A stretch of DNA of 35,140 nucleotides from Eggerthellaceae bacterium (GTDB lineage Bacteria > Actinomycetota > Coriobacteriia > Coriobacteriales > Eggerthellaceae), in contig JAAWAY010000178.1 of the NCBI GenBank assembly GCA_022792415.1, forward strand, positions 1-35,140, written 5' to 3'. Shown here one piece after another: positions 14,709 through 34,414 of the stretch. Made by a program: the position numbers and the translations under genes. Every line of letters begins with the position of its first letter. Positions within the stretch are counted from its first letter, which is position 1. Below the pieces are notes generated by a model. That model was given only the letters and a program-made list of their open reading frames with translations, made no database searches and was not told the origin of the DNA.

Positions 14709-15647
14709 TCATGAGAATCCTCCGATTAGCTCCAACATCACCGGCCCCAGCACCAGCATCAGCATCGCGGGCAGGATGAGCGCCGCCGTGGGCACCATCA
14801 TCTTGACCGGGGCCTTGGCCACCTGCTCCTCCATGCGGGCCCGATAGGCTCCGCGCGCCTCGCGCGCCGCCGCCTCGAGCCCCTCAGCCAGAGACGAGCC
14901 GAAGCGCAGCGAGCGGATCACGTCCTCGACCACCCGCGCGAAGATGGCCGAGTCGTACGTCGACGCCACCTGCCGCAGCGCCTCGTCCCGCGCCACCAGG
15001 CCGCTCTCCCACTGCCGCTGCGCGCTTGCCAGCGACGCGGAGAGCAGCGTGTCGAAGTGCCCGACGTAGAGGCGCAGGCTCCGGTCGAACGACAGCCCGC
15101 TGCGCAGCCCCAGGGCCACCACGTCGAGCATCTCGGAGAGGTGCCGCTCCATCTCCTGCGCCCGCGCCCGGCACCGCGCCTCCACCGCGCGCCGCGGCGC
15201 CCGCGCGCCTGCCACCGCGCCGACGAGCCCCAGCGCGACCGCCAGCTCCGACGAGAAGGCGGCGCCCACCGCCATGCCGCCGGCGCAGCCCGCAGCACCC
15301 AGCCGCACCTGGGCCTCCCGGCAAGCCTCCGCGCTGACCGCGTCGGAAAGGCCCGCCGGCGCGACCCTCTCCCGGGCCCAGGCGGGGCCGCCCGGAACCA
15401 GGCGCGCCCAACGCCGGCACGTCGGCGAGCGCAGCCGCGTCGTGAGCGCGGCGAGGTAGTCGATGACGCGCGCGTCGGGTGATCGGGCGCGCTCGCGCAC
15501 CCTCGGTCCCGTCTCCTGCCGCACGGCCCGCTGGTACCGGCGCCGCGCCCGCACGCGCTCGGCCACGCCCCAGGCCCACAGGCCGAGCAGGGCCGCGAGC
15601 GCGCATGCCGCCACGGCCCACGCCGTCAGCGCGCCCACGCCGCTCAC
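14709..15647 (-). CDS. tadC: Type II secretion system F-domain protein TadC
   Basis: T2SSF-like: MERHLSEMLDVVALGLRSGLSFDRSLRLYV... C-terminal TMs; GTG start overlaps the tadB stop (GTGA). Confidence 0.85.
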   Translation of the reverse strand: MSGVGALTAWAVAACALAALLGLWAWGVAERVRARRRYQRAVRQETGPRVRERARSPDARVIDYLAALTTRLRSPTCRRWARLVPGGPAWARERVAPAGLSDAVSAEACREAQVRLGAAGCAGGMAVGAAFSSELAVALGLVGAVAGARAPRRAVEARCRARAQEMERHLSEMLDVVALGLRSGLSFDRSLRLYVGHFDTLLSASLASAQRQWESGLVARDEALRQVASTYDSAIFARVVEDVIRSLRFGSSLAEGLEAAAREARGAYRARMEEQVAKAPVKMMVPTAALILPAMLMLVLGPVMLELIGGFS

Positions 15648-16612
15648 CCCGTCTCCACGGCGAGCATGCGGCGCACGACCAGCACGCCGATCGCCTGCAT
15701 CCCAAGCGCCGTCGCCAGAAGCGCCATCCCGGCGACGCTCTCGAAGAACGGCGCCAGGAAGTCCTCGCTCACCAGCGAGAACACCGCCACCAAGATGAAG
15801 GGCATCAGCGTCACGATGCGGGCCGAGAGCTTCGCCTGGGCCGTCTGGACGCGCAATGAGCGCCGCAGCTCGAGCTCGCCCTCCACCGACTCCCTCGCCG
15901 CGTCCAGCACGGCCGCCAGACTGCCCCCGCTGTGGTGCTGGACGTCCAGCGACACGGCCACGAACGACAGCTCGGGGACCGAGCCGGGGCCGCGCAGCGC
16001 CGCGAGGGCCTCCGTGGCCGTGGAGCCCGTCTCGAGGCGCGCCGCGGCCTGGGCGAACAGCCCGCCCAGCGCCCCGCCCACCTCCCGCGACACCTGGGCG
16101 AGCGTCTGGGACAGCGAAAGCCCCGCCCGGAAGCACACCCCCATCGACCGGAGGGCCTCGGGGACCTGGTCGCGCAGCTCGGTGCGGCGACGGTCCTGGA
16201 GGGAGCGCACGGCACCGCCGGCGGCGACGAGCAGCCCCGCGCCCACGGCGACGGCGCACACCGGGGTGCCGGAGAGGGCCCACCCCGCCGCGCCGGCCGC
16301 GATGACGGCGGCGCCGAGCAGCGAGACCAGCGCGTCGGGCGCGGTCACCAGCCCCCGATCGCCGGCGATGTCCGCCGCCTCATCGGCGAGGGAGCGCAGG
16401 GCGGGCAGGCGCAGGGCGATCCGGGCGAGGGGCATGAGGGGCGCCACGCCGTTGCGCGCGAGCCAGGCCCCTCCCGGCGCGCCGGGGCCCCCGACGAGCG
16501 CCTCGGCCCGGCGGACCCGGGCGGCGCGATCGACGAGCCACCGGCCCAGCGCCGCGCCCGCCAGCGCCGCCGCCGCTAGCGCGCCGCCTGCCGCGAGAGC
16601 CGTTCCCTCCAT
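15644..16612 (-). CDS. tadB: Type II secretion system F-domain protein TadB
   Basis: LRDQVPEALRSMGVCFRAGLSLSQTLAQVSREVGGALGGLFAQAAARLETG; C-terminal TMs. Confidence 0.87.
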   Translation of the reverse strand: MEGTALAAGGALAAAALAGAALGRWLVDRAARVRRAEALVGGPGAPGGAWLARNGVAPLMPLARIALRLPALRSLADEAADIAGDRGLVTAPDALVSLLGAAVIAAGAAGWALSGTPVCAVAVGAGLLVAAGGAVRSLQDRRRTELRDQVPEALRSMGVCFRAGLSLSQTLAQVSREVGGALGGLFAQAAARLETGSTATEALAALRGPGSVPELSFVAVSLDVQHHSGGSLAAVLDAARESVEGELELRRSLRVQTAQAKLSARIVTLMPFILVAVFSLVSEDFLAPFFESVAGMALLATALGMQAIGVLVVRRMLAVETG

Positions 16613-17907
16613 GCGTCCACCTCCCTTCCGCACACCGTTCCCGCGGCCACCGCCGCGCCAAGCCACGTGGGCTCGGCGATCCAGCGCCCCTCGGATGCCC
16701 CCGGATCCCGCTCGTACAGCGGGGCCAGGACGCAGCGGCGCCGGTCGGCATCGAAGCCCATCTCGGCCACCGCCGACACGTAGCGCTCGCCGCTCCGCGC
16801 GCGGGTCGTCTGGACGACCAGGTCGAACGCGCTTCCGATCTGCGCCTCCACCACGTCGAGCGGCAGGTCGACCGCGTAGCGCACCATGGTGACGAGGCGG
16901 TCCACCACCTCGTGCGGCGCGTTGGCGTGCAACGTGGTGAGCGACCCCTCGTGACCCGTGTTCATGGCCTGGAGCATGTCGAGCGCCTCGCCGCCGCGGC
17001 ATTCCCCCACGATGATGCGATCGGGGCGCATGCGCAGGGCGTTGATGACGAGATCGCGGATGGTCACCTCCCCCAGCCCCTCGGCGTTGGGGGGCCGCGC
17101 CTCCAGGCGCACCACGTGCGGGTGCCGGTCGAACTTAAGCTCAGCCGAGTCCTCGATGGTGAGGACGCGCTCCTCTGGCGGGATGTGGCACGACAGCGCG
17201 TTGAGCAGCGTCGTCTTCCCGCTGCCCGTCCCCCCGGACACCGCCACGTTGCGGCGCGCGACCACCGCCCACACCAGCAGCTGGCGCAAGGAGTCGTCGA
17301 ACGACCCGCGGGCGGCCATCTCCTCCAGCGTGATGATGCGCCGCGAGAACAGACGGATGGCGATCAGGGGCCCGTCGGGTGACAGCGGCGGGATGATGGC
17401 GTGGACGCGGTGGCCCTGGGGCAGGCGCGCGCTCACCATGGGGGACGCCTCGTCGATGCGACGCCCCAGAGGGCCGATGATGCGGTCGATGAACACGCGC
17501 ACCTGCTCGTCGCTGTCGAACGACGCGTCGCTGCGGTACAGCCGCCCGGCCCGCTCGTAGTAGATGCTGCGCGTGCCGTTGACCATCACCTCGGTCACCG
17601 TGTCGTCGTCGAGCAGGGCCTCGAGGGGCCCCATGCCGAAGACGGCGTCGACCAGGTCGCTCGTCAGCCGCTCGCGCTCGACGGGCGTCACCGACTCCCA
17701 GCCGGCGTCGGAGAACGCCTGGCGGCAGGCCGCCCTCAGCTCGCTGCGGGCGCGCTCGGGGTTCTCGGCCATGAGGGCCGCCACCTTCTCCATGGCGATG
17801 CGCTTGCGCACGCTGCGCCTGAGGTCCTCCACCGTCGCCTGCCGCACCGCGACGCCGGGGCCCGCGCACGCGGCCTGCGCGGCGCGGGCGCGCTCCATCA
17901 GCGTCAT
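16576..17907 (-). CDS. tadA: CpaF/TadA family secretion ATPase
   Basis: Walker A SGGTGSGKTTLLNALS, Asp box LTIEDSAELKF, RPDRIIVGECRGGEALDMLQAMNTGHEGSLTTLHANAP. Confidence 0.95.
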   Translation of the reverse strand: MTLMERARAAQAACAGPGVAVRQATVEDLRRSVRKRIAMEKVAALMAENPERARSELRAACRQAFSDAGWESVTPVERERLTSDLVDAVFGMGPLEALLDDDTVTEVMVNGTRSIYYERAGRLYRSDASFDSDEQVRVFIDRIIGPLGRRIDEASPMVSARLPQGHRVHAIIPPLSPDGPLIAIRLFSRRIITLEEMAARGSFDDSLRQLLVWAVVARRNVAVSGGTGSGKTTLLNALSCHIPPEERVLTIEDSAELKFDRHPHVVRLEARPPNAEGLGEVTIRDLVINALRMRPDRIIVGECRGGEALDMLQAMNTGHEGSLTTLHANAPHEVVDRLVTMVRYAVDLPLDVVEAQIGSAFDLVVQTTRARSGERYVSAVAEMGFDADRRRCVLAPLYERDPGASEGRWIAEPTWLGAAVAAGTVCGREVDAWRERLSRQAAR

Positions 17908-19415
17908 GGCAGCACCCCCTCCCCCGCCTGGGCGCGGCGGGAGCGCCGATGCAGCAACCCGCGGCGCGGCTCCTCGGCCGCCTGGACGCCCGGCCGGCCG
18001 GGCGCCGGTTGGGGCGGCACGCCGCGACGGGAGGCGGCGGCCGGCAGCAGCTCGTCGACCGCGGACGCCACGCTGGCGACCAGGTCGTTGCGCGTGGACG
18101 CGAGCGCGGGGGCCATGCCCGACCCCATCAGCTCCTCCACCTCCGCGCCCCCGTCCCGCAGCTCCCCCACCGGCAGCCCCTGCAGCGCGCAAGAGACGTC
18201 GAGCGAGGTGAGGGAGGCGCCCTTGGCGCAGCGGTTCAGCAGAAACACGAACGACCCCGTGGCGATGCCGCAGCGCCCGCACAGCTCGAGGGCATGGCGA
18301 CACGCCCTCACGGACGAGGCGCGTTGGTCGATGAGGAACAGCGTCCTCGCGCTGCGTTCGATGATGAGCGCGTGGCCCTCCGACCAGCTGGCGGCTGTGT
18401 TGACCACCACCACGTCATAGCGGGCGGCGGCCTGCTCGATGAGCTGGGGAATGCGGGGGATGAGGTCCTCGGCCACCTCGAGGCGGCGGGGCGCGGCAAT
18501 GACCGCGAGGCCCGTGCCGGCGTCGGCATCGGCCCAGCGGGCCGCGTCGGAGAGCACCTCGTCCGCCGCCGGCGCGTCCGCGCGCCCCAGCAGGGCCGTC
18601 TCGTCGCCGAACGGCAGGTCGCAGTCGAGCAGGGCGACGCGCAAGCCTCGGGCGGCCGCGTGCAGGGCGACCAGCGCGGCGACCGTGCTCCTGCCCGCGC
18701 CGCCGCTGCCGCTCACCACCGACAGCACCAGCCCCGAGGCGACCTGCGCGGCCGGCGGCTGGTCCGCCGCAGCCTGCTGGGCGGGCACGGACGGGTTCGC
18801 AGCGGGCGGGCGGACGACGACCGGGACGCGCCCCTCCGAAGGCCGGGCGGGCGCGGGCGGCGCAGGTGGGCACGCCTCGCGAACGACCTGCGCCGTCTCG
18901 CAGGCCAGCGCCTCCTGCCAGGGCAGCGGGGCGCTGACGGGCGCGGCCGGCTCGAGGGGACCGCCCGGAGCCGAGGCGGCCCGCAAGGCCGCCTCGCGGG
19001 CCGCGGCCGCCACCCGGCGGCGGCTCTCCTGCGCCAGGCGCCGGGCCAGGCCCTCGGGCGACAGCAGCCCGGTGACGCCCGCGGCCTGCGCCCGGCTGGC
19101 CATCGAGCCGCTCGCCTCCGTGGTCACCAGGTAGATGGGAAGCGCGGGCGCGTCGTGGCGCAGGGCGGCCGCCAGGTTGACGGCCGACATCTGATCCGAG
19201 GACAGCACCCACGCCTCATCGAGGGGCTCGCCCTGCCTCCCCACGCGCGCCCGCGCCGCCTCGGCGTCGGCGCAGGGCTCCACCCACGGGTGGGCCGCCA
19301 GCCCTCCCTCGGGCAGCCCCGCGATCGTCGGATCCGCCATCACGCGACTCTCCGCGCAGAACAGCACCGTGCCCATATGGCTCCTCTCCCCCACGGTCTC
19401 GTGTCTCTCGCTCAT
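17904..19415 (-). CDS. TadZ/CpaE-like ParA-superfamily pilus localisation protein
   Basis: VLSVVSGSGGAGRSTVAALVALHAAARGLRVALLDCDLPFGDETALLG; receiver-like N-terminal region; ATGA overlaps on both sides. Confidence 0.82.
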   Translation of the reverse strand: MSERHETVGERSHMGTVLFCAESRVMADPTIAGLPEGGLAAHPWVEPCADAEAARARVGRQGEPLDEAWVLSSDQMSAVNLAAALRHDAPALPIYLVTTEASGSMASRAQAAGVTGLLSPEGLARRLAQESRRRVAAAAREAALRAASAPGGPLEPAAPVSAPLPWQEALACETAQVVREACPPAPPAPARPSEGRVPVVVRPPAANPSVPAQQAAADQPPAAQVASGLVLSVVSGSGGAGRSTVAALVALHAAARGLRVALLDCDLPFGDETALLGRADAPAADEVLSDAARWADADAGTGLAVIAAPRRLEVAEDLIPRIPQLIEQAAARYDVVVVNTAASWSEGHALIIERSARTLFLIDQRASSVRACRHALELCGRCGIATGSFVFLLNRCAKGASLTSLDVSCALQGLPVGELRDGGAEVEELMGSGMAPALASTRNDLVASVASAVDELLPAAASRRGVPPQPAPGRPGVQAAEEPRRGLLHRRSRRAQAGEGVLP

Positions 19416-20170
19416 AGATCGTCCTGCTCCCCCGCCGCCTGCGGGGCCGTCGCGGTCCCCCATGCGGCGGCGATGCGGTCCTCCCGGCCCTCTGGCGCAG
19501 GCGGATCGGGAGAGTCGGGCGGGTCGCCGCCTGAGTCCGCCGGCAGGACGAAGTAGATGTCCAGCCCCTGGGCGGCGGCCACGAGCTCCTGCGCGGCGGA
19601 AGGCGCCACCGCCAGCGTCACCCACTCCACCGCCCCGGCGGCGAGGAGGCCCGACGAGTCGGTGCTCGTGGCCAGCACGAGGGCACGGGGGACGAGCAGT
19701 TCGGTGGCCTGCGCGCCCGTGGCGTAGACGTCGGCCCGCATGCCGGCTTGGAGCGCGCCGCCGACGGCCTGCACCTCCCGCGCCGGGACGCTGACGGCCA
19801 CGAGGCCCGCCGGCACGTCCAGGGAGGGGGCGGCCGCGGATCCGAAGCGGCGGCTGGTGAGCGCCTCGCCCTTGAGGATGGCGGCCGACGCCTGCTTGCC
19901 CACGACGTCGGCGCGCGCCGTGATGGCGCCCTCGGGGAGCAGGTCGGCCACCCACAGCCGCGTCTCAACGGCGCCCTCGTCGACCACCTCCCCCGAGGCG
20001 ATGTCGCGCCGCGCCACACAGACCTCCAGCTGATCGCCGCCGTAGCGGTCGAGCGCCTCCGCCCGCGCGCGCTCGGCCTGCTCCCCCACCTGCGCCATGA
20101 ACGCCCCCACACACAACGCGCACGCCGCCGCGCACGCCAGCCCCACGGCCAGGGATCGACCCTTCTTCAT
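19412..20170 (-). CDS. cpaB: CpaB/RcpC-like Flp pilus assembly protein (SAF domain)
   Basis: N-terminal TM, VCVARRDIASGEVVDEGAVETRLW, VGKQASAAILKGEALTSRRFG, VPAGLVAVSVPAREVQAVGGALQAGMRADVYAT. Confidence 0.87.
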   Translation of the reverse strand: MKKGRSLAVGLACAAACALCVGAFMAQVGEQAERARAEALDRYGGDQLEVCVARRDIASGEVVDEGAVETRLWVADLLPEGAITARADVVGKQASAAILKGEALTSRRFGSAAAPSLDVPAGLVAVSVPAREVQAVGGALQAGMRADVYATGAQATELLVPRALVLATSTDSSGLLAAGAVEWVTLAVAPSAAQELVAAAQGLDIYFVLPADSGGDPPDSPDPPAPEGREDRIAAAWGTATAPQAAGEQDDL

Positions 20171-20407
20171 CACGCCTCCTCTCGTATCGGAGACGCCATC
20201 CTCTTCCGCCCCGCCGACCACGCGGCGACTGGCCGGCCACGCGCCCCGCACCGCCCCCCGACGTCCGATCCGCCACGGGCCAGCGGCCCCGCGGGAGCGC
20301 GCGCACGCGGTGTCGGCGCCCCGTCGGGTGCGCGACTGTGCCCCGCGACGGGCCGTCGGGCGCCCCGCGGCAGGCCGGCAAGAGGGGAAGTTCTGGGGGG
20401 GAAGGTA

Positions 20408-20442
20408 AAAGAAAACCCCGTTTCACCAGGTGAAACGGGGTT
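20408..20442 (-). terminator. Rho-independent terminator of tRNA-Val
   Basis: Near-perfect palindrome AACCCCGTTTCACC-A-GGTGAAACGGGGTT followed on the minus strand by TTTTCTTTTA. Confidence 0.85.
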
Positions 20443-20449
20443 CTGAACA

Positions 20450-20524
20450 TGGTGGTCGCGGAGGGATTTGAACCCCCGGCCTTGTGCTTGTAAGGCACCT
20501 GCGCTCCCGCTGCGCCACGCGACC
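20450..20524 (-). tRNA. tRNA-Val (anticodon UAC), CCA encoded
   Basis: Cloverleaf: acceptor GGTCGCG/CGCGACC, D-stem GCGC/GCGC, anticodon loop CTTACAA, T-loop TTCAAAT, A discriminator + CCA; one mismatch at the top of the anticodon stem. Confidence 0.93.
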
Positions 20525-20758
20525 TCGGGGCGATACGGCTGCGTCTTCGACGCGCGCGTTCGCGGTGGGTATTCTCCCATAGTTGGGCGACGCGGGCAAA
20601 CGAGCGCACGCGGGGACTGCCCCGCCGAGGGACGCAGGGGCGTCGACCCCGGACGGACGACGCCCCGGCGGCACGGGCGCACAAGCGGCCGCCACGGGCA
20701 CGACCTGGTGTTCTATGGCATAATCAGCGCGATAAAGACGAGGGAGAGCAGGCACATC

Positions 20759-23700
20759 ATGACGAAGTCCGACGACGCGACGCCCGCGAGGGCGTCCGCG
20801 CCCCTGCACATCGGCATCGACGCGGGATCCAAGACCATCAAGGTGGTGATCGCCGACGGCGAGGGCCGCGTGCTGCACTCGGCCTACCAGCGGCACAAGT
20901 CCAACATCCGGTCCACCCTGGAGACGGTGCTCCACGACCTGTCCTGGCGCTACGGCAACCTGGAGGGCACCATCGCCATCACGGGGTCGGCCGGCATCAG
21001 CGTGGCCGAGGTGCTCGGCGCGCCCTTCGTCCAGGAGGTGGTGGCCACCACGCGGGCCGTGCGCGCCGCGTTCCCGGATGCCGACGCCGTCATCGAGCTG
21101 GGCGGCGAGGACGCCAAGGTCATCTACCTGACCGGCGGCCTGGAGCAGCGCATGAACGCCACGTGCGCGGGCGGGACGGGCGGCTTCATCGACACCATCG
21201 CCTTCATGCTGGGCGTGCGTACGAGCGCCATGAGCCGGCTGTCCATGGGCGCGTCGCGCCTGTACCCTATCGCGTCGCGGTGCGCGGTGTTCGCCCAGAC
21301 CGACGTGCGCCCGCTGCTCAACGCCGGGGCGTCGAAGTCCGACATCGCCGCGAGCGCGCTGGATGCCGTGGTACGCCAGACGCTGGGCGGCCTGGCCTGC
21401 GGACGCCCCCTGCGTGGCACCATCGTGTTCCTGGGCGGCCCGTTCGAGTACGTTCCCGACCTGGCGTTCCGGTTCCGCAAGGCGCTGGGGCTCACCAGCG
21501 CGACGGGCATCCTGCCCCGCGACGCGCACCTGTTCACCGCGCTGGGCACGGCCCTGCTGGGGGCCGAGGAGGGCACGACGGTCACGCTCGACGAGCTGTG
21601 CGAGCGCGTGGCGGGCGGCACGCGGCTGGACGCCGAGGACGACCTGGGGCGGCTGCCCGCGCTGTTCTCCGACGAGGACGAGCTGCGAGCCTTCCGCGAG
21701 CGCCACCGCCAGGCGACGTACCCCACGCGGCGCGCCTTCGACGTGCGCGGTCCGGTGTTCGTGGGCATCGACGCCGGATCCACCACGGCCAAGCTGGCGG
21801 TGGTGGACGCCGACGGCACGCTGGTGCACAGCGCCTACGAGCCCACGCGCGGCGACATCCTGGACACGGTGCGCGAGATGCTGCTGGGCGCCTACGCGGC
21901 CATCCCCTCGTCGGCCCCGCGCGGGCAGGAGGCGCCCTGGGTGGCGCACGCCACGGCCACCGGGTACGGGGAGGGGCTGCTGCGCGCGGCCTTGGGCATC
22001 GACTCGGGCATGGTGGAGACGGCGGCCCACCTGCGGGGCGCGCGGCAGCTGCGGCCGGACGTCTCATTCGTGCTGGACATCGGCGGCCAGGACATGAAGG
22101 CGCTGTGGGTCAGCGACGGCCAGGTGACTGACGCCGTGCTGAACGAGGCCTGCTCGAGCGGGTGCGGCGCCTTCATCGAGGGCACCGCGCACAGCCTGCG
22201 ATCGAACCCCTCGGACTTCGCCAGCGCGGCGCTGCGCGCCACGAGTCCCGTCGACCTGGGGATGCGCTGCACCGTGTTCATGTCATCGCGCGTCAAGCAC
22301 GCCCAGAAGGTGGGCGCCACGCTGGAGGACATCGCCGCAGGGGCGGCCTACTCGGTGGTGCAGAACGCGCTGTTCCGCATCATCGGCGCCGAGCGCGCCT
22401 CGTCGCTGGGCGACGTCGTGGTGGTGCAGGGCGGCGCGTTCAAGTCGGATGCGGTGCTGCGGGCCTTCGAGCTGACCTGCGGCGTTGAGGCCGTGCGCTG
22501 CGACCGGGCCCACCTTATGGGGGCCATCGGCGCCGCGCTCACGGCCCGGGATCGCTGGCTGGCCGACCAGGCCGCGGCGGGCAGCGCGGGCGAGCCGGGA
22601 TCGCGCAGCACGCTCATCGGACGTGACGAGCTGCGGGGCCTCGACCCGCGGCACACGGCGCTCACCTGCACGGGCTGCGCCAACGGCTGCGCGCTGGACG
22701 TCGTCGACTTCGGCGGGGGCCGACGCTTCGTCAGCGGCAACCGCTGCGAGCGCGGGGCCGACGAGTTGGAGCGACGCGCCGGGGCCGAGGGCGCGGCGCG
22801 GGCCGAGGACGCCGGCGCCGAGGAGCCGCCGAACCTCATCGCCCTGGAGCAGGCGCTCATCGCGGATCTGGGGGACGTCGACGCCGCGGGGCCGCGTGGG
22901 AGCGTGGCCATCGGCCTCATGGACGTGCTGGAGATGTACGAGGCGCTCCCCTTTTGGCATCGGCTGCTGTCGGCGCTGGGCTTCAGCGTGCGCCGTGCGG
23001 CCGGAGACGGCGGGGGAACGAGCGAGGCGTGGGAGACCGTGCCCTCCGAGAGCGTGTGCTTCCCCGCCAAGCTGGCGCACGCGCGCCTGTTCTCGCTGCG
23101 GGGAAAGGGATGCGACGCCGTGCTGATGGCCCGGTTCGACCGCGGGTCGCATTGCCCGGTGACCAGCGGCTATGCCGACGCGCTGGCCGATGGCGCGGGG
23201 CTTTGCCTGGTGGGAGGCGCGAGCGCGCGTGAAGACGCGGGCGGCCGCGTGGCACAGGACGGCGCCGACGGGGCGCGCGGCCCCGAGACGCCCGCGGCGC
23301 GGTTCGGTGCGGAGGGCGACGCGCTGCTGGCGCCGCTGCTGAGCGCGTCGAAGCCGGCGGCGATCGCCGCCAACCCGGCGGATCGCGCGGCACTGACGGC
23401 CTGCCTGGCGCCCCTGGCGGCCCAGGCCGACGCGCCCCTGGGCGAGGACGAGGTGGAGGCGGCCCTGCGCGAGGCCCTGCGTGCGCAGGAGGCGTTCGAG
23501 CAGGCCCTGGCCCAGGCCGGCGCCGAGGCCCTGCGCTGGGTGGAGGCCGATCCGGCGCGCCACGACATCCTGGTGGCGGGGCGGCCCTACCACAACGACG
23601 CCGCGCTCGTCCACGACGTGGACGTCATGCTGCAGCGCCTGGGATTCGCCGTGCTCAACCCGCTGTCGCTGGCAGGCCAGCTGCGCGCCGTGGACGGCCA

Positions 23701-29043: not shown

Positions 29044-29325
29044 TCAGGCGGCGGCTGCCGCGGGGGCCAGCGCCATGAGCAGCACGACAACCGCCACGAC
29101 CACGAGCGCACCGAGGACGAGCCCGCGAATGACACGACCGCACACGGCGTCCTGGCTCACGTCCTCGGCGGTCCCTGCCTGCGACGCGTCGGCCGCGCCC
29201 GGCACCGCCTGCGGCACGTTGGTCGCGCCGGACGCCTCCACGCCTCGACGCCCGACGGCCGGCTGGCCCATGGACGCCGCCAGGCGCGCGGGGTTCCTCT
29301 TGGAGCGGGGATCATCTGGGGTCAT
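29044..29325 (-). CDS. Small hypothetical protein with one C-terminal TM
   Basis: ORF MTPDDPRSKRNPARL... ending GLVLGALVVVAVVVLLMALAPAAAAA. Confidence 0.55.
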   Translation of the reverse strand: MTPDDPRSKRNPARLAASMGQPAVGRRGVEASGATNVPQAVPGAADASQAGTAEDVSQDAVCGRVIRGLVLGALVVVAVVVLLMALAPAAAAA

Positions 29326-29500
29326 GGCAGGCCTTTCCCGTAGGTTCACATGCTGCGCCCCTGGCATAGGGCTTCGCGCGGCGCCTCTGCCCCGGGCTCG
29401 CAAGCCCGAAGCGCGCCACGCCCTCGCGATGGGGCGCACTGGAGCGCGCCGCCCTCGCTGCCGACGGACGCGGCACCAGCTTAGCACGGGCGGCGAAGCA

Positions 29501-29533
29501 GCCTCCGTTTTGGCAAGAAATCGCGAGTTTGCG
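29501..29533. repeat. Left arm of a 33-bp long-range inverted repeat
   Basis: GCCTCCGTTTTGGCAAGAAATCGCGAGTTTGCG; reverse complement of 29650-29682 with one mismatch. Confidence 0.95.
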
Positions 29534-29649
29534 CGCTCACCGGCCAGCGATTCTCCCAAGAAGGAGCGCGCTGCGCTGAGGCGCCAGCATCGTGCCTGGA
29601 AAGAGCCATGGCTAACTTTCGGCCGGGCCCCGGGGCGGCGAGACCAGGT

Positions 29650-29682
29650 CGCAAACTCGTGATTTCTTGCCAAAACGGAGGC
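29650..29682. repeat. Right arm of the 33-bp long-range inverted repeat
   Basis: CGCAAACTCGTGATTTCTTGCCAAAACGGAGGC. Confidence 0.95.
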
Positions 29683-29828
29683 GAAAAGCGGACCGGCCCA
29701 GCAAGGGGGAGCAAGGGAGCAGCGCAACGCGGCGCGAGGGCAGAGCACAGCGCAAGAGAATCGAGGACGCAAGAAGGGACGTCAGGAAAAGCAGAAGGCG
29801 AGAGGGTCGCCAAGAGAAAGCGGTGGGG

Positions 29829-29844
29829 TGTTTCACGTGAAACA
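29829..29844. other. parS: Perfect parS centromere-like site
   Basis: TGTTTCACGTGAAACA, identical to the canonical 16-bp chromosomal ParB-binding parS palindrome. Confidence 0.88.
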
Positions 29845-30022
29845 TTCGTTCGAATGGACGTTGGAGGCGGGAATGGGGCCTCGAGTGCGATGCGAGAAGC
29901 ATAGGGACGCGATGCGGGAATACGCGGGTGCACTGCGCGAATGTGATGCGAGGTGCGGGTTGCGGGCACGAGCGCGCTGCGGGCGGGACGGAGCAAGGAC
30001 GCTCACCGCGCCCCACACGCGA

Positions 30023-30060
30023 AAGCGGACCGGCCCCATCGGGGAGGAGCCGATCCGCTT
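30023..30060. terminator. Hairpin with T-rich flank
   Basis: AAGCGGACCGGC / GCCGATCCGCTT (one mismatch), followed on + by CCGCTGTGTTTTA. Confidence 0.4.
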
Positions 30061-30083
30061 CCGCTGTGTTTTAGACTACCTGC

Positions 30084-30112
30084 ACTATATGACATCATCC
30101 AATACTCGTCAA
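30084..30112 (-). promoter_or_regulatory. Sigma70-like promoter reading leftwards
   Basis: Minus strand TTGACG - 17 nt - TATAGT. Confidence 0.55.
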
Positions 30113-30160
30113 CATCTTCTTTGGAAATGCTGTGAAGACGTAGGGCCCATCCTTTTCATT

Positions 30161-30200
30161 AGTCCGATTTTGGACTTAAATGATAGTCCGAAATTTGACC
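30161..30200 (+). promoter_or_regulatory. Two phased operator-like half-palindromes upstream of marR
   Basis: AGTCCGATTTTGGACT (30161-30176) and AGTCCGAAATTTGACC (30185-30200). Confidence 0.5.
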
Positions 30201-30262
30201 AATCATTCACGGCCCGGCACCGCGCACAACGCGCTGCGGGCCCCCGCGACGAAGGAGACCGC

Positions 30263-30709
30263 ATGGCGATGACCGACCCGCGTCCCGCGACCCTGGCGAA
30301 GGCGGCGGAGCTCGAGCGCTTCTACCAGGAGCTCAACGAGCTCTACCATGACGTGGCCCGCACGTGCGGGCTCTCCGACAGCGCCTTCGACATCCTGTAC
30401 GCGCTCATGATGCACGACGGCCTCACCCAGAAGCAGCTGCGCGAGGGCAGCTTCATGACGAAGCAGACGGTGAGCTCGTCGGTGAGCCGCCTCATAGCCG
30501 ACGGTCTGGTCGAGATAGCCGGCACCGGGCGCGGGGCCACGGTGAGCCTGTCCGCCGCGGGGGCGGCGCTGGTCCACGAGCGCCTCCAGCCCGTCCTGGC
30601 CGCGGAGTGCCGCGCGCTCGAGCGGCTCTCCCCCGCCGACCAGGACGAGCTGCTGCGCCTGATGGGCGCCTACCGCACCGCCCTGCGTGCCGAGCTGAGC
30701 GCGCTGTAG
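30263..30709 (+). CDS. MarR-family transcriptional regulator
   Basis: wHTH: FDILYALMMHDGLTQKQLREGSFMTKQTVSSSVSRLIADGLVEIAGTGRGATVSLSAAG; RBS GAAGGAG. Confidence 0.88.
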   Translation: MAMTDPRPATLAKAAELERFYQELNELYHDVARTCGLSDSAFDILYALMMHDGLTQKQLREGSFMTKQTVSSSVSRLIADGLVEIAGTGRGATVSLSAAGAALVHERLQPVLAAECRALERLSPADQDELLRLMGAYRTALRAELSAL

Positions 30710-30830: not shown

Positions 30831-32213
30831 ATGACCACCTCAATGTCCCAGCACTTCACGATGCCCGCGCTGCTCAAGTTCGTGGCGCCCTCCATCGCCA
30901 TGGCCATCTTCGCGTCGCTCTACTCCATCGTGGACGGCGTGTTCGTGTCGAACTTCGCCGGCAAGACGGCCCTGGCCGCCGTCAACCTCATCTACCCCTT
31001 CATCATGATCCTGTCCGCGACGGGCATGATGGTGGGCACGGGCGGCAGCGCGCTCGTGGCCAAGACGCGCGGCGAGGGCGACGAGGAGCGTGCCAACCGC
31101 ATCTTCTCCATGCTCGTGCTGTTCGCCCTGATCCTGGGCATTGCGCTGACCGCCGTGGGCTACCTCGTCGTCGAGCCGGTGGCCGCGGGGCTGGGCGCCA
31201 CGGGCCCCATGTTGGACGACGCGCTGCTCTACGGGCGCATGCTGCTGGCCACGCTGCCGTTCTTCATCCTGCAGTTCGCCTTCCAGAGCCTGTTCGTGAC
31301 GGCTGGCAAGCCCCAGCTGGGCTTCGTCGTCATCGTGGCGGCCGGCGTGACCAACATGGTGCTCGACGCGCTGTTCGTGGGCGCGCTGGGCTGGGGGCTC
31401 GCCGGCGCGGCCCTGGCCACCAACATCGGCGAGATCGTCGGCGGCGGCCTGCCCCTCGTCTACTTCCTGCGCAAGAACTCGAGCGCGCTGCGGCTGCGCC
31501 CGACGCGCCTGCAGCTGCGCCCCCTGGGCAAGGCCTGCCTGAACGGCTCGTCGGAGATGGTGTCCAACGTGGCCATGAGCCTGGTGTCCATGCTGTACAA
31601 CTTTCAGCTGCTGGCCTTCCTGGGCGAGGACGGCGTGGCGGCCTACGGCGTCATCATGTACACGGCCATGATCTTCGCCGCGGTGTTCATGGGCTTCGCC
31701 ATGGGATCCGCCCCGCTCATGAGCTTCCAGTACGGCGCGCGCAACCACCGCGAGATGCGCAGCCTGCTCAAGAAGAGCCTGCTGTTCGTGGCCGTCGGCG
31801 GCGTGGCCATGTTCGCCGCGGGCGAGCTTCTGGCCGAGCCCCTCGCCCTCATCTTCGTGAGCTATGACGCGGGCCTGACCGAGCTGACCGTACACGGCTA
31901 CCGCCTGTACTCGTTCGCGTTCCTCATCATGGGCTTCTCGATCTTCGGCTCGTCGTTCTTCACGGCGCTCAACAACGGCGTGGTGTCGGCCATCATCGCG
32001 TTTCTGCGCACGCTCGTGTTCGAGACCTCGTCGGTGATCCTGCTGCCGATGGTGCTGGGCGTGGACGGCATCTGGCTGTCCGTCACCGTGGCCGAGCTGG
32101 CCTCCGTGACGGTCATGGCCGTGTTCATGCTGGCCCTGGGGCGCCACTACGGCTACCTGGGCCCGCTGCCGCCCGACCCGAGCCGGCGCAAGCCCATCGA
32201 GGAGGCCGCGTAA
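30831..32213 (+). CDS. MATE family efflux transporter
   Basis: 12-TM-like protein; SIVDGVFVSNFAGKTALAAVNLIYPF...GTGGSALVAKTRGEGDEERAN...GMAMGSAPLMSFQYGARNH-type MATE repeats. Confidence 0.92.
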   Translation: MTTSMSQHFTMPALLKFVAPSIAMAIFASLYSIVDGVFVSNFAGKTALAAVNLIYPFIMILSATGMMVGTGGSALVAKTRGEGDEERANRIFSMLVLFALILGIALTAVGYLVVEPVAAGLGATGPMLDDALLYGRMLLATLPFFILQFAFQSLFVTAGKPQLGFVVIVAAGVTNMVLDALFVGALGWGLAGAALATNIGEIVGGGLPLVYFLRKNSSALRLRPTRLQLRPLGKACLNGSSEMVSNVAMSLVSMLYNFQLLAFLGEDGVAAYGVIMYTAMIFAAVFMGFAMGSAPLMSFQYGARNHREMRSLLKKSLLFVAVGGVAMFAAGELLAEPLALIFVSYDAGLTELTVHGYRLYSFAFLIMGFSIFGSSFFTALNNGVVSAIIAFLRTLVFETSSVILLPMVLGVDGIWLSVTVAELASVTVMAVFMLALGRHYGYLGPLPPDPSRRKPIEEAA

Positions 32214-32415
32214 GGCCGGCCGCGGACGCCCCGTCGACAACGCGCCGTTCACAGATGGGCTATCGGCGCGTATCAGGCGGCCTCACGGGCCCGCGGCGTC
32301 GCGGCCGGCACCGTACGCTGTACCCAGCAATCCCGTCGGGCATCTGGTTCCGCTAACTCACCAGAGCGCGCCCCGGGGGAACGTACAGCGCATGGGCGCA
32401 CGAAAGGAGCACACC

Positions 32416-32781
32416 ATGGGATTCACCGACAAGATGAAGGATCTGGCCGAGGACGCCAAGCAGATGGCCGGCGATATCGCAGAGGCCGCCCAGGAGGGCG
32501 TGCATGAGCTGGGCGAGAAGGCCCAGGACCTGGGCGAGAAGGCGGGCGATCTGAAGGACGCCGCCGTCGAGAAGGCGGGCGACATCGCCGACGCCGCCCA
32601 GGACGCCGCCAAGAAGGCCGCTGACAAGGCCTCCGACCTGAAGGACGCCGCGGCCGACAAGGCCGCCGACGTGGCCGAGGGCGCCAAGAAGGCCGCCGGT
32701 GAGGCCGCTGACAAGGCCGAGCAGGCCAAGGATGCCGCGGCCGCCAAGGTCGACGAGGCTGCCAAGGCCGCCCAGAAGTAG
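32416..32781 (+). CDS. LEA-like/apolipoprotein-like Ala-Lys-Asp-rich 11-mer repeat protein
   Basis: MGFTDKMKDLAEDAKQMAGD... with consecutive 11-residue repeats; RBS AAAGGAG. Confidence 0.8.
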   Translation: MGFTDKMKDLAEDAKQMAGDIAEAAQEGVHELGEKAQDLGEKAGDLKDAAVEKAGDIADAAQDAAKKAADKASDLKDAAADKAADVAEGAKKAAGEAADKAEQAKDAAAAKVDEAAKAAQK

Positions 32782-32932: not shown

Positions 32933-34414
32933 CTACCCGATCTCGCCCGCGCGCACCTTGTCGCGCACCAGCCAGCTGGCGCCCGCGTACACGATGATCG
33001 TGAGCGGCGCCACCACCAAGAACGGCACGGCCACCGCGCCGGTGGCGTACAGGACGCTGCCGAGCAGGCCCACGCCGGCGATGGTGCCCACGCCGCGCCA
33101 GTTGACCTCGTGCTCGGGTGCGTCCACGTCGATGCCCTGGGCGCCGATGCCCATCTTGCCGCGCACCAGGTAGTAGTCGGTGATGAGCAGCACGCACCAC
33201 GACGACGTGAGGATGGAGCCGTAGCTCATGAAGGCGTTCACCTGGTCGAGGATGTTGCCCAGGATGAACGCGAGCCCGATGGCGTTGGCGGCCACCACGG
33301 CCACCGCCCAGGGCAGCTTGCGGCCGGTGAGCGAGTGCACCAGGTTGGACACGGCGTTGGCGCCTCCGATGGAGTTGGACGTCTCCACCTTCATCTGGGA
33401 CAGGCAGATGACCGCCAGGCCGATGCCGCCCGCGGCCAGTACGAGCGACACGCCCGGGTTGGTGACCGCGGCGTTGGCGGCCAGCGTGGGATCCATGCCC
33501 TGGGCCGAGAAGTACGCAACGGACTTCTCGAAGCCGTAGTAGACGATGAGCGCGCCGCACAGGTAGGTGACGATGGCGAAGAGGCTGCCCGTGGCCGCGA
33601 TGGGCGCGATGTCGCGCTCCTTGCGGGCGAAGCGGGTGAAGTCAGCCGCGAACAGGGCCAGAAGGCCGCTCGTCATGATGGCGTAGTTGACGGAGTAGGC
33701 GAAGCCCTGCAGGGGCTCGACGCCGGGGATGAGGATGCCGTGGGTAGCCGCGTCGACCAGCTGCCCGTCGGCGGCGATGAGGTAGACGACGTAGCCCATG
33801 ACGCAGAACAGAGCCACCACGAACACGGCGTTCATGCGGGCGATGATCTTGGTGCCGAACAGCGCCATGGCCACCCACACGCACGAGATGCCGATGAACA
33901 GGGCCCAGCGGACGGCCTCGCCCTCCCAGCCGAACGCGAACAGGATGGCGTTGCCCAGCTGCACGGTGCCCACGGCCAGCACGCCCACCAGGCAGAAGAT
34001 CCAGATGATGGAGCCGGCGGCCGACCCGCGCCGCCCGAAGATGTAGAAGCGGGACACCACGTTGTTGGGCAGTCCCTCGCGGAAGCAGATCTTGCCGACG
34101 AGGTAGGTGAGCACGAACGACAGCGCGAACGTGATGGCCACGGTGACGCCGCCCATCTGGCAGCCGGCGTATAAGGCCACGATGCCGCCGCCCATGACCT
34201 TGGACAGGCTCGACACCACGCCCGACAGGATGGCCGCGATGTCAGGCCACGCCAGGCGCTTGTCGGCCGGCACGCGCTCGAACAGCGACACCTGCTCGGT
34301 GGCCGACCCCTTCTTCTTGGGAGCGGCCCCCTCCCCCGACGGCGCGCGGCCGCGGGTGCGCTCGGCCACGTCGGCCGTGGCCTTGCCCTTCGCGTCAGTT
34401 GGCTTCTGGTCCAT
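32933..34414 (-). CDS. NCS1-family (cytosine/purine permease-like) transporter
   Basis: CodB/NCS1-like: LAWPDIAAILSGVVSSLSKVMGGGIVALYAGCQMGGVTVAITFALSFVLTYLVGKICFREGLPNNVVSRFYIFGRRGSAAGSIIW; DFTRFARKERD. Confidence 0.82.
   Translation of the reverse strand: MDQKPTDAKGKATADVAERTRGRAPSGEGAAPKKKGSATEQVSLFERVPADKRLAWPDIAAILSGVVSSLSKVMGGGIVALYAGCQMGGVTVAITFALSFVLTYLVGKICFREGLPNNVVSRFYIFGRRGSAAGSIIWIFCLVGVLAVGTVQLGNAILFAFGWEGEAVRWALFIGISCVWVAMALFGTKIIARMNAVFVVALFCVMGYVVYLIAADGQLVDAATHGILIPGVEPLQGFAYSVNYAIMTSGLLALFAADFTRFARKERDIAPIAATGSLFAIVTYLCGALIVYYGFEKSVAYFSAQGMDPTLAANAAVTNPGVSLVLAAGGIGLAVICLSQMKVETSNSIGGANAVSNLVHSLTGRKLPWAVAVVAANAIGLAFILGNILDQVNAFMSYGSILTSSWCVLLITDYYLVRGKMGIGAQGIDVDAPEHEVNWRGVGTIAGVGLLGSVLYATGAVAVPFLVVAPLTIIVYAGASWLVRDKVRAGEIG

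Follow-up and report, generated by a model that had tools for sequence, protein, structure and literature searches.

In other species ParB, once nucleated at parS, closes into a clamp that holds CTP and slides; it also binds ParA and recruits SMC. KorB of plasmid RK2, another clamp of the ParB family, acts from several dispersed palindromes and controls plasmid transcription at an operator sequence different from parS. Published chromosomal parS numbers run from 1 to ~20–23 per chromosome, near the origin (PMC7333895, PMC10197239), and the eight sites of Bacillus subtilis, which span ~0.75 Mb, are already regarded as widely dispersed (PMC8357415). The usual explanation for parS being scarce and confined to the origin is that copies added to the arms disturb segregation or cause condensins to collide (PMC5815017, PMC5098823, PMC8357415). 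Extra parS sites in Caulobacter are tolerated up to about 500 kb from the native locus but disfavored in mid-arm (PMC5815017), parS in Pseudomonas must sit within about 650 kb of oriC (PMC5098823), and scattered loading in Bacillus leads to SMC collisions (PMC8357415). The Noc-binding sites (NBS) of Bacillus are ~70 short palindromes around the chromosome whose reader is a ParB-family CTPase (PMC4331003); they depart from the parS sequence at two base positions and require the Noc-type residues QKKR (PMC7383237). In Pseudomonas aeruginosa, ParB is found along the chromosome at numerous half-parS places outside the parS cluster (PMC10419367).

The DNA analyzed here (the window) is a contig of 35,140 nucleotides, C64, from a draft genome of an Eggerthellaceae bacterium, a 77%-complete MAG of 2.39 Mb in 234 contigs. 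A first-pass annotation had described one perfect parS palindrome within a gene-poor segment of ~0.9 kb, and each part of that description held. The sequence TGTTTCACGTGAAACA was matched exactly at 29829–29844, had no second match in the window even with up to three mismatches, and did not occur in any of 100 dinucleotide shuffles of the window. With its flanks it forms an extended 22-bp site, GGG-parS-TTC (29826–29847), which fits the lineage signature RRR-parS-YYY. The surrounding intergenic region covers 937 bp without a convincing gene (29326–30262). It is bounded on the left by a gene for a small predicted membrane protein (29047–29325, minus strand), conserved in the congener Adlercreutzia faecimuris and without a Pfam family, and on the right by a gene for a MarR-family regulator (30263–30709, plus strand; PF12802, E 7.6e-14), downstream of which lies a gene for a MATE-family efflux transporter (30831–32213, plus strand; PF01554, E 2.5e-39). 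Judged by its sequence, the site is an ordinary parS.

Several other features were seen nearby. A 33-nt inverted repeat (29501–29533 and 29650–29682; 97% complementary, 116 nt apart) lies just left of parS and has no other copy elsewhere in the draft genome. On the minus strand, 29990–30112 contains a sigma-70-like promoter, TTGACG-17-TATAGT, with a very stable hairpin (z −5.6) downstream of it. Over 119 nt this stretch is 85% identical at the equivalent place in A. faecimuris; it has no Rfam match and is possibly a small RNA or a terminator. An RNA element at parS itself was considered and rejected, the region having given only one sub-threshold, chance-level Rfam match. Further right are a gene for a small alanine- and lysine-rich protein that is YtxH-like below the cut-off (32392–32781, plus strand) and, adjoining it, a weakly NCS1-like transporter gene (32933–34414).

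The whole-genome search that had been proposed found 42 exact and five one-mismatch copies of TGTTTCACGTGAAACA on many contigs of the 2.39-Mb draft, with no two-mismatch copies; the reversed pattern, used as a control, had no match. Contig C142, judged by its translations, carries dnaA, dnaN, recF, rnpA, yidC, jag, rsmG, parA, and parB. The last two were also identified by profile search, parB at 16403–17464 (minus strand; locus L016), with a structure match as well, and parA at 17454–18512. Sixteen of the exact copies fall in a 6-kb part of this contig (15.0–20.9 kb), in the parB/parA/rsmG region. The G+C content of that region (14900–21000) is 44–59%, compared with 68–70% in the sequenced DNA of a congener.

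The ParB of this genome scored above the NCBIfam parB_part cut-off, and its N-terminal and middle domains aligned with solved ParB structures, including ParB-CTP and ParB-parS complexes (7bnk, 6t1f). Its score against the Noc model was 245.7 bits, below the cut-off of 315. In Caulobacter ParB, four positions set specificity, RTAG for parS and QKKR for Noc sites, and R173 and G201 are invariant in ParBs (PMC7383237). Alignment to the Caulobacter protein (SKGRSTVAN and ITAGHAR against GKSRSHVAN and LTAGHAR) gave R, A, E, and G at the four positions, and thus R at 173 and G at 201, where Noc has Q and R. The N-terminus carries the ParA-type motif GLGRGLNSLLGD and no Noc amphipathic helix. By these residues the protein is parS-type in specificity. 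Because parA and parB lie beside dnaA, where the 16-mer forms a 16-copy cluster, and because ParB retains R173 and G201, the site in the window is very probably a ParB-loading site. The identification as a chromosomal parS, which a genome lacking parB would have contradicted, is thus well supported.

Copy number was examined by counting the exact 16-mer in 140 Eggerthellaceae genomes. Most genera had 0–14 copies, whereas the expanded ones (the window's genus, Eggerthella, Gordonibacter, Rubneribacter, and a few others) had about 20–148. The four counts in the window's genus were 42, 107, 126, and 54, of which 107 belongs to A. faecimuris and 126 to Enterorhabdus sp. P55. Counts by genus elsewhere were 109–148 (g50), 63–122 (g58), 25–79 (g53), 48 and 103 (g51), 39–75 (g22), 21 and 30 (g57), 15–41 (g16), 12–23 (g11), and 108 (g4), and one of the two members of g13 was expanded, with 33. 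Individual examples include Rubneribacter badeniensis (122), Eggerthella sinensis (109), and Gordonibacter pamelaeae (78); at the low end are Adlercreutzia hattorii (2), A. caecimuris (3), Slackia (3–4), and Collinsella (0–3). In a phylum-wide sample of 397 genomes, none outside the family exceeded 21; this comparison was restricted to exact 16-mers and undercounts lineages using degenerate parS. On a ParB tree the expanded genomes clustered with two label changes, a number as low as which was reached in none of 500 shuffles; the tree took in some partial-length sequences and fits one or two origins alike. The expansion is specific to one branch of the Eggerthellaceae, and the array is far beyond the described range. 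A search of the open-access literature for parS in Eggerthella or Coriobacteria returned nothing relevant, and within that literature the expanded array appears undescribed.

The copies are not uniformly distributed. In A. faecimuris, parS density was 1.05 per kb at distances of up to 10 kb from parB and fell outward through 0.40, 0.26, 0.16, 0.043, and 0.032 per kb to 0.007 per kb beyond 500 kb, a drop of about 150-fold. Three relatives with single-contig genomes, G006, G050, and G110, were also mapped, with positions listed for 100 of 108 matches in G006, all but 39 in G110, and all but 2 in G050. The chromosome of G006 is 3,377,915 bp, with parB at 2.296 Mb; at least 24 of its 108 copies are found no more than 33 kb from parB, and at least 33 among the matches listed lie beyond a quarter-chromosome distance. 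At least six exact copies occur at 610.9–618.3 kb, the antipode of the origin, where the sampled GC skew flips sign. At least three copies in G110 are no farther than about 35 kb from the antipode, as placed with a chromosome length of about 3.63 Mb estimated from the rounded genome size and the parB position, and G050 has at most two in about 1.1 Mb around its antipode. Copies were scattered in all expanded genomes mapped, and in two, G006 and G110, they reached the neighborhood of the terminus. The six antipodal copies of G006 (610953–618348, L276), four of them in two doublets, sit within ~12 kb of the antipode between ordinary chromosomal genes; simple patterns found no dif-like sequence in a 20-kb terminus sample of this genome.

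The first-pass annotation had reasoned that parS usually clusters toward oriC and that the site could put the window within the domain of the origin. The general statement fits the array as a whole, which is centered on parB, but not the window's copy, which is off the origin contig, and the placement of the window was not supported: it is on C64 and the origin is on C142. In A. faecimuris parB sits 0.28 Mb into contig C1 (1.35 Mb; L062) and the segment orthologous to the window is at 27–38 kb of contig C4, at least ~0.28 Mb from parB. The best matches of the window's genes in G006, G050, and G110, where gene order is not conserved, are 0.8–1.6 Mb from parB. Because copies occur out to the terminus, a parS copy in this lineage gives little positional information.

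We conclude, with a probability of roughly 78%, that the site is a genuine chromosomal parS belonging to a greatly expanded array of about 25–148 copies per chromosome, at which ParB would load chromosome-wide and whose members would be interchangeable. The array shares with the chromosomal parS of Bacillus subtilis, Caulobacter, and Streptomyces the identical 16-bp palindrome, a cognate parAB by oriC, and greatest density near the origin; it differs in copy number and in extending onto the arms. By analogy with other ParBs, dimers would recognize the palindrome, close as CTP-bound clamps, and slide to flanking DNA, with the same clamp loading at every copy. Loading would thus take place along the whole chromosome and not solely at an origin-proximal centromere. 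The resulting coat would be graded: the origin would be segregated via ParA, and ParB on the arms may seed SMC-ScpAB condensin or compaction. ScpB was found in nine of ten genomes searched, among both the expanded isolates and the unexpanded relatives tested, so the presence of condensin does not explain the expansion. The exception is the window's own genome, the 77%-complete MAG, in which scpB was not detected; against this stands the fact that isolates of the same genus share the expansion. Because added arm copies are harmful in Caulobacter and Pseudomonas, many distal copies are unexpected, and the distal sites may act differently. Either the flux of ParB and SMC is tuned differently in the expanded genera, or the distal sites serve some other purpose.

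One such purpose would be a second, Noc-like job for ParB, acquired without a duplicated Noc gene, in which ParB complexes all along the chromosome prevent division across DNA that has yet to segregate, or act as a tether for the nucleoid. Only one ParB-family protein is encoded in the complete genome G006, with its 108 copies, which makes ParB the only candidate reader of that family; Noc itself uses ~70 scattered sites. For these reasons a Noc-like role is the leading alternative for the distal sites. In number and scatter the copies resemble NBS, likewise many short palindromes read by a ParB-family protein, more than they resemble classical parS, and, as described below, they show no preference for promoter or terminator positions. 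However, the ParB residues are RXXG and not QKKR, the Noc model score is below its cut-off, the N-terminus is of the ParA type, and NBS avoid the terminus, near which two of the genomes keep copies and a third, G050, has at most two in about 1.1 Mb. On balance we regard a Noc-like job as unlikely. A broader proposal is that in these gut Actinobacteria a single ParB serves upward of 100 parS sites, spread all the way to the terminus, in a distributed ParABS system joining centromere, condensin-loading, and possibly nucleoid-occlusion roles, which elsewhere are either restricted to the origin or divided between ParB and Noc. This is somewhat easier to accept but can be advanced only tentatively. 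Comparison with the half sites of P. aeruginosa is limited, as those are 7 bp long (GTTTCAC or GTTCCAC) and the copies here are perfect full palindromes. Free half sites of the GTTTCAC form were not enriched in 1.64 Mb of A. faecimuris, where GTTTCAC occurred 124 times and GTGAAAC 118 times, ~100 of each inside full sites, with 39 expected by chance.

The 16-mers could instead be a dispersed palindromic repeat, REP- or MITE-like, spread by copying and having no role. Besides the high copy number, two observations favor this. Doublets with starts 34–36 bp apart recur in G006, G050, and G110, mostly far from the origin (in G006, for example, at L018, L023, L029, L032, L038, and L045), with a spacer that often resembles GTTTGCGCAAAC. 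In addition, positions turn over: 19 copies from contigs other than C142 could be mapped to the part of the A. faecimuris genome that was compared, and of these nine had a counterpart, one of them about 1 Mb from parB, and ten, including the window's copy, had none. The sequence itself, however, does not behave like a decaying repeat. Exact copies numbered 95 in 1.64 Mb of A. faecimuris, with a further 10 at one mismatch and 3 at two. Seeding on the inner 10-mer gave 102 places against 0.31 expected, and at these the six outer bases were 97–100% invariant; seeding on the outer ten bases gave 99 places (0.06 expected), 95 of them with a perfect center. Because decayed copies are rare, the exact 16-mer must be maintained, unlike a repeat that decays after transposition. 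A pyrimidine, read outward, occupied positions +1 to +3 in 93–97% of A. faecimuris half-flanks, and this purine-parS-pyrimidine preference was identical at origin-cluster and distant sites. Neither an all-against-all comparison of site flanks nor a genome search with the 671-bp surrounding segment found longer shared flanking sequence; what is common is the 16-mer and a few bases, or up to ~70 bp in doublets, and on this basis an origin in a mobile element was rejected. Density, moreover, tracks distance to parB. We therefore consider a repeat without a role improbable. Copy numbers and sequence thus persist even though positions change from one congener to another, and selection appears to keep the copies exact throughout.

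A further reading is regulation of the neighboring genes. The window's parS is intergenic and ~420 bp upstream of marR, and KorB, a weak sequence relative of this ParB (8qa8), is a repressor; the site could then be an operator through which ParB or another regulator controls the marR-MATE pair. The distance from marR is large, however, and the orthologous gap in A. faecimuris, ~500 bp shorter, contains no parS, nor is there an exact copy at the matching locus of Enterorhabdus sp. P55 (L167). The other copies do not behave as operators either. A simple codon-model gene call put 68 of the 95 A. faecimuris copies (72%) in intergenic DNA, compared with 13.6% non-coding sequence (P ~1e-37), and these divide among tandem, divergent, and convergent gaps as 33/21/14, close to the available gap lengths. 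This division by space, without orientation bias, speaks against promoter operators and terminators and distinguishes the copies from KorB operators. An operator is accordingly slightly less probable still than a repeat. A terminator hairpin is scarcely credible: the palindrome does lie within an intergenic gap, but its stem is weak and A/T-rich, it lacks a T-run, no terminator was predicted there, and divergent gaps carry copies as commonly as convergent ones.

The expanded-array reading must accommodate the fact that the window's own parS is missing at the orthologous place in both congeners. Since copies remain exact while their positions turn over, the window's copy is probably an interchangeable member of the array without a locus-specific function. 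In Eggerthellaceae contigs, the presence of parS is no guide to where the origin lies. A culturable gut lineage with about 25–150 perfect parS sites, some of them at the terminus, is a natural exception to the rule that parS is few and origin-bound. The reason for that rule thereby becomes testable, as these cells would have to either cope with ParB loading throughout the chromosome or exploit it.
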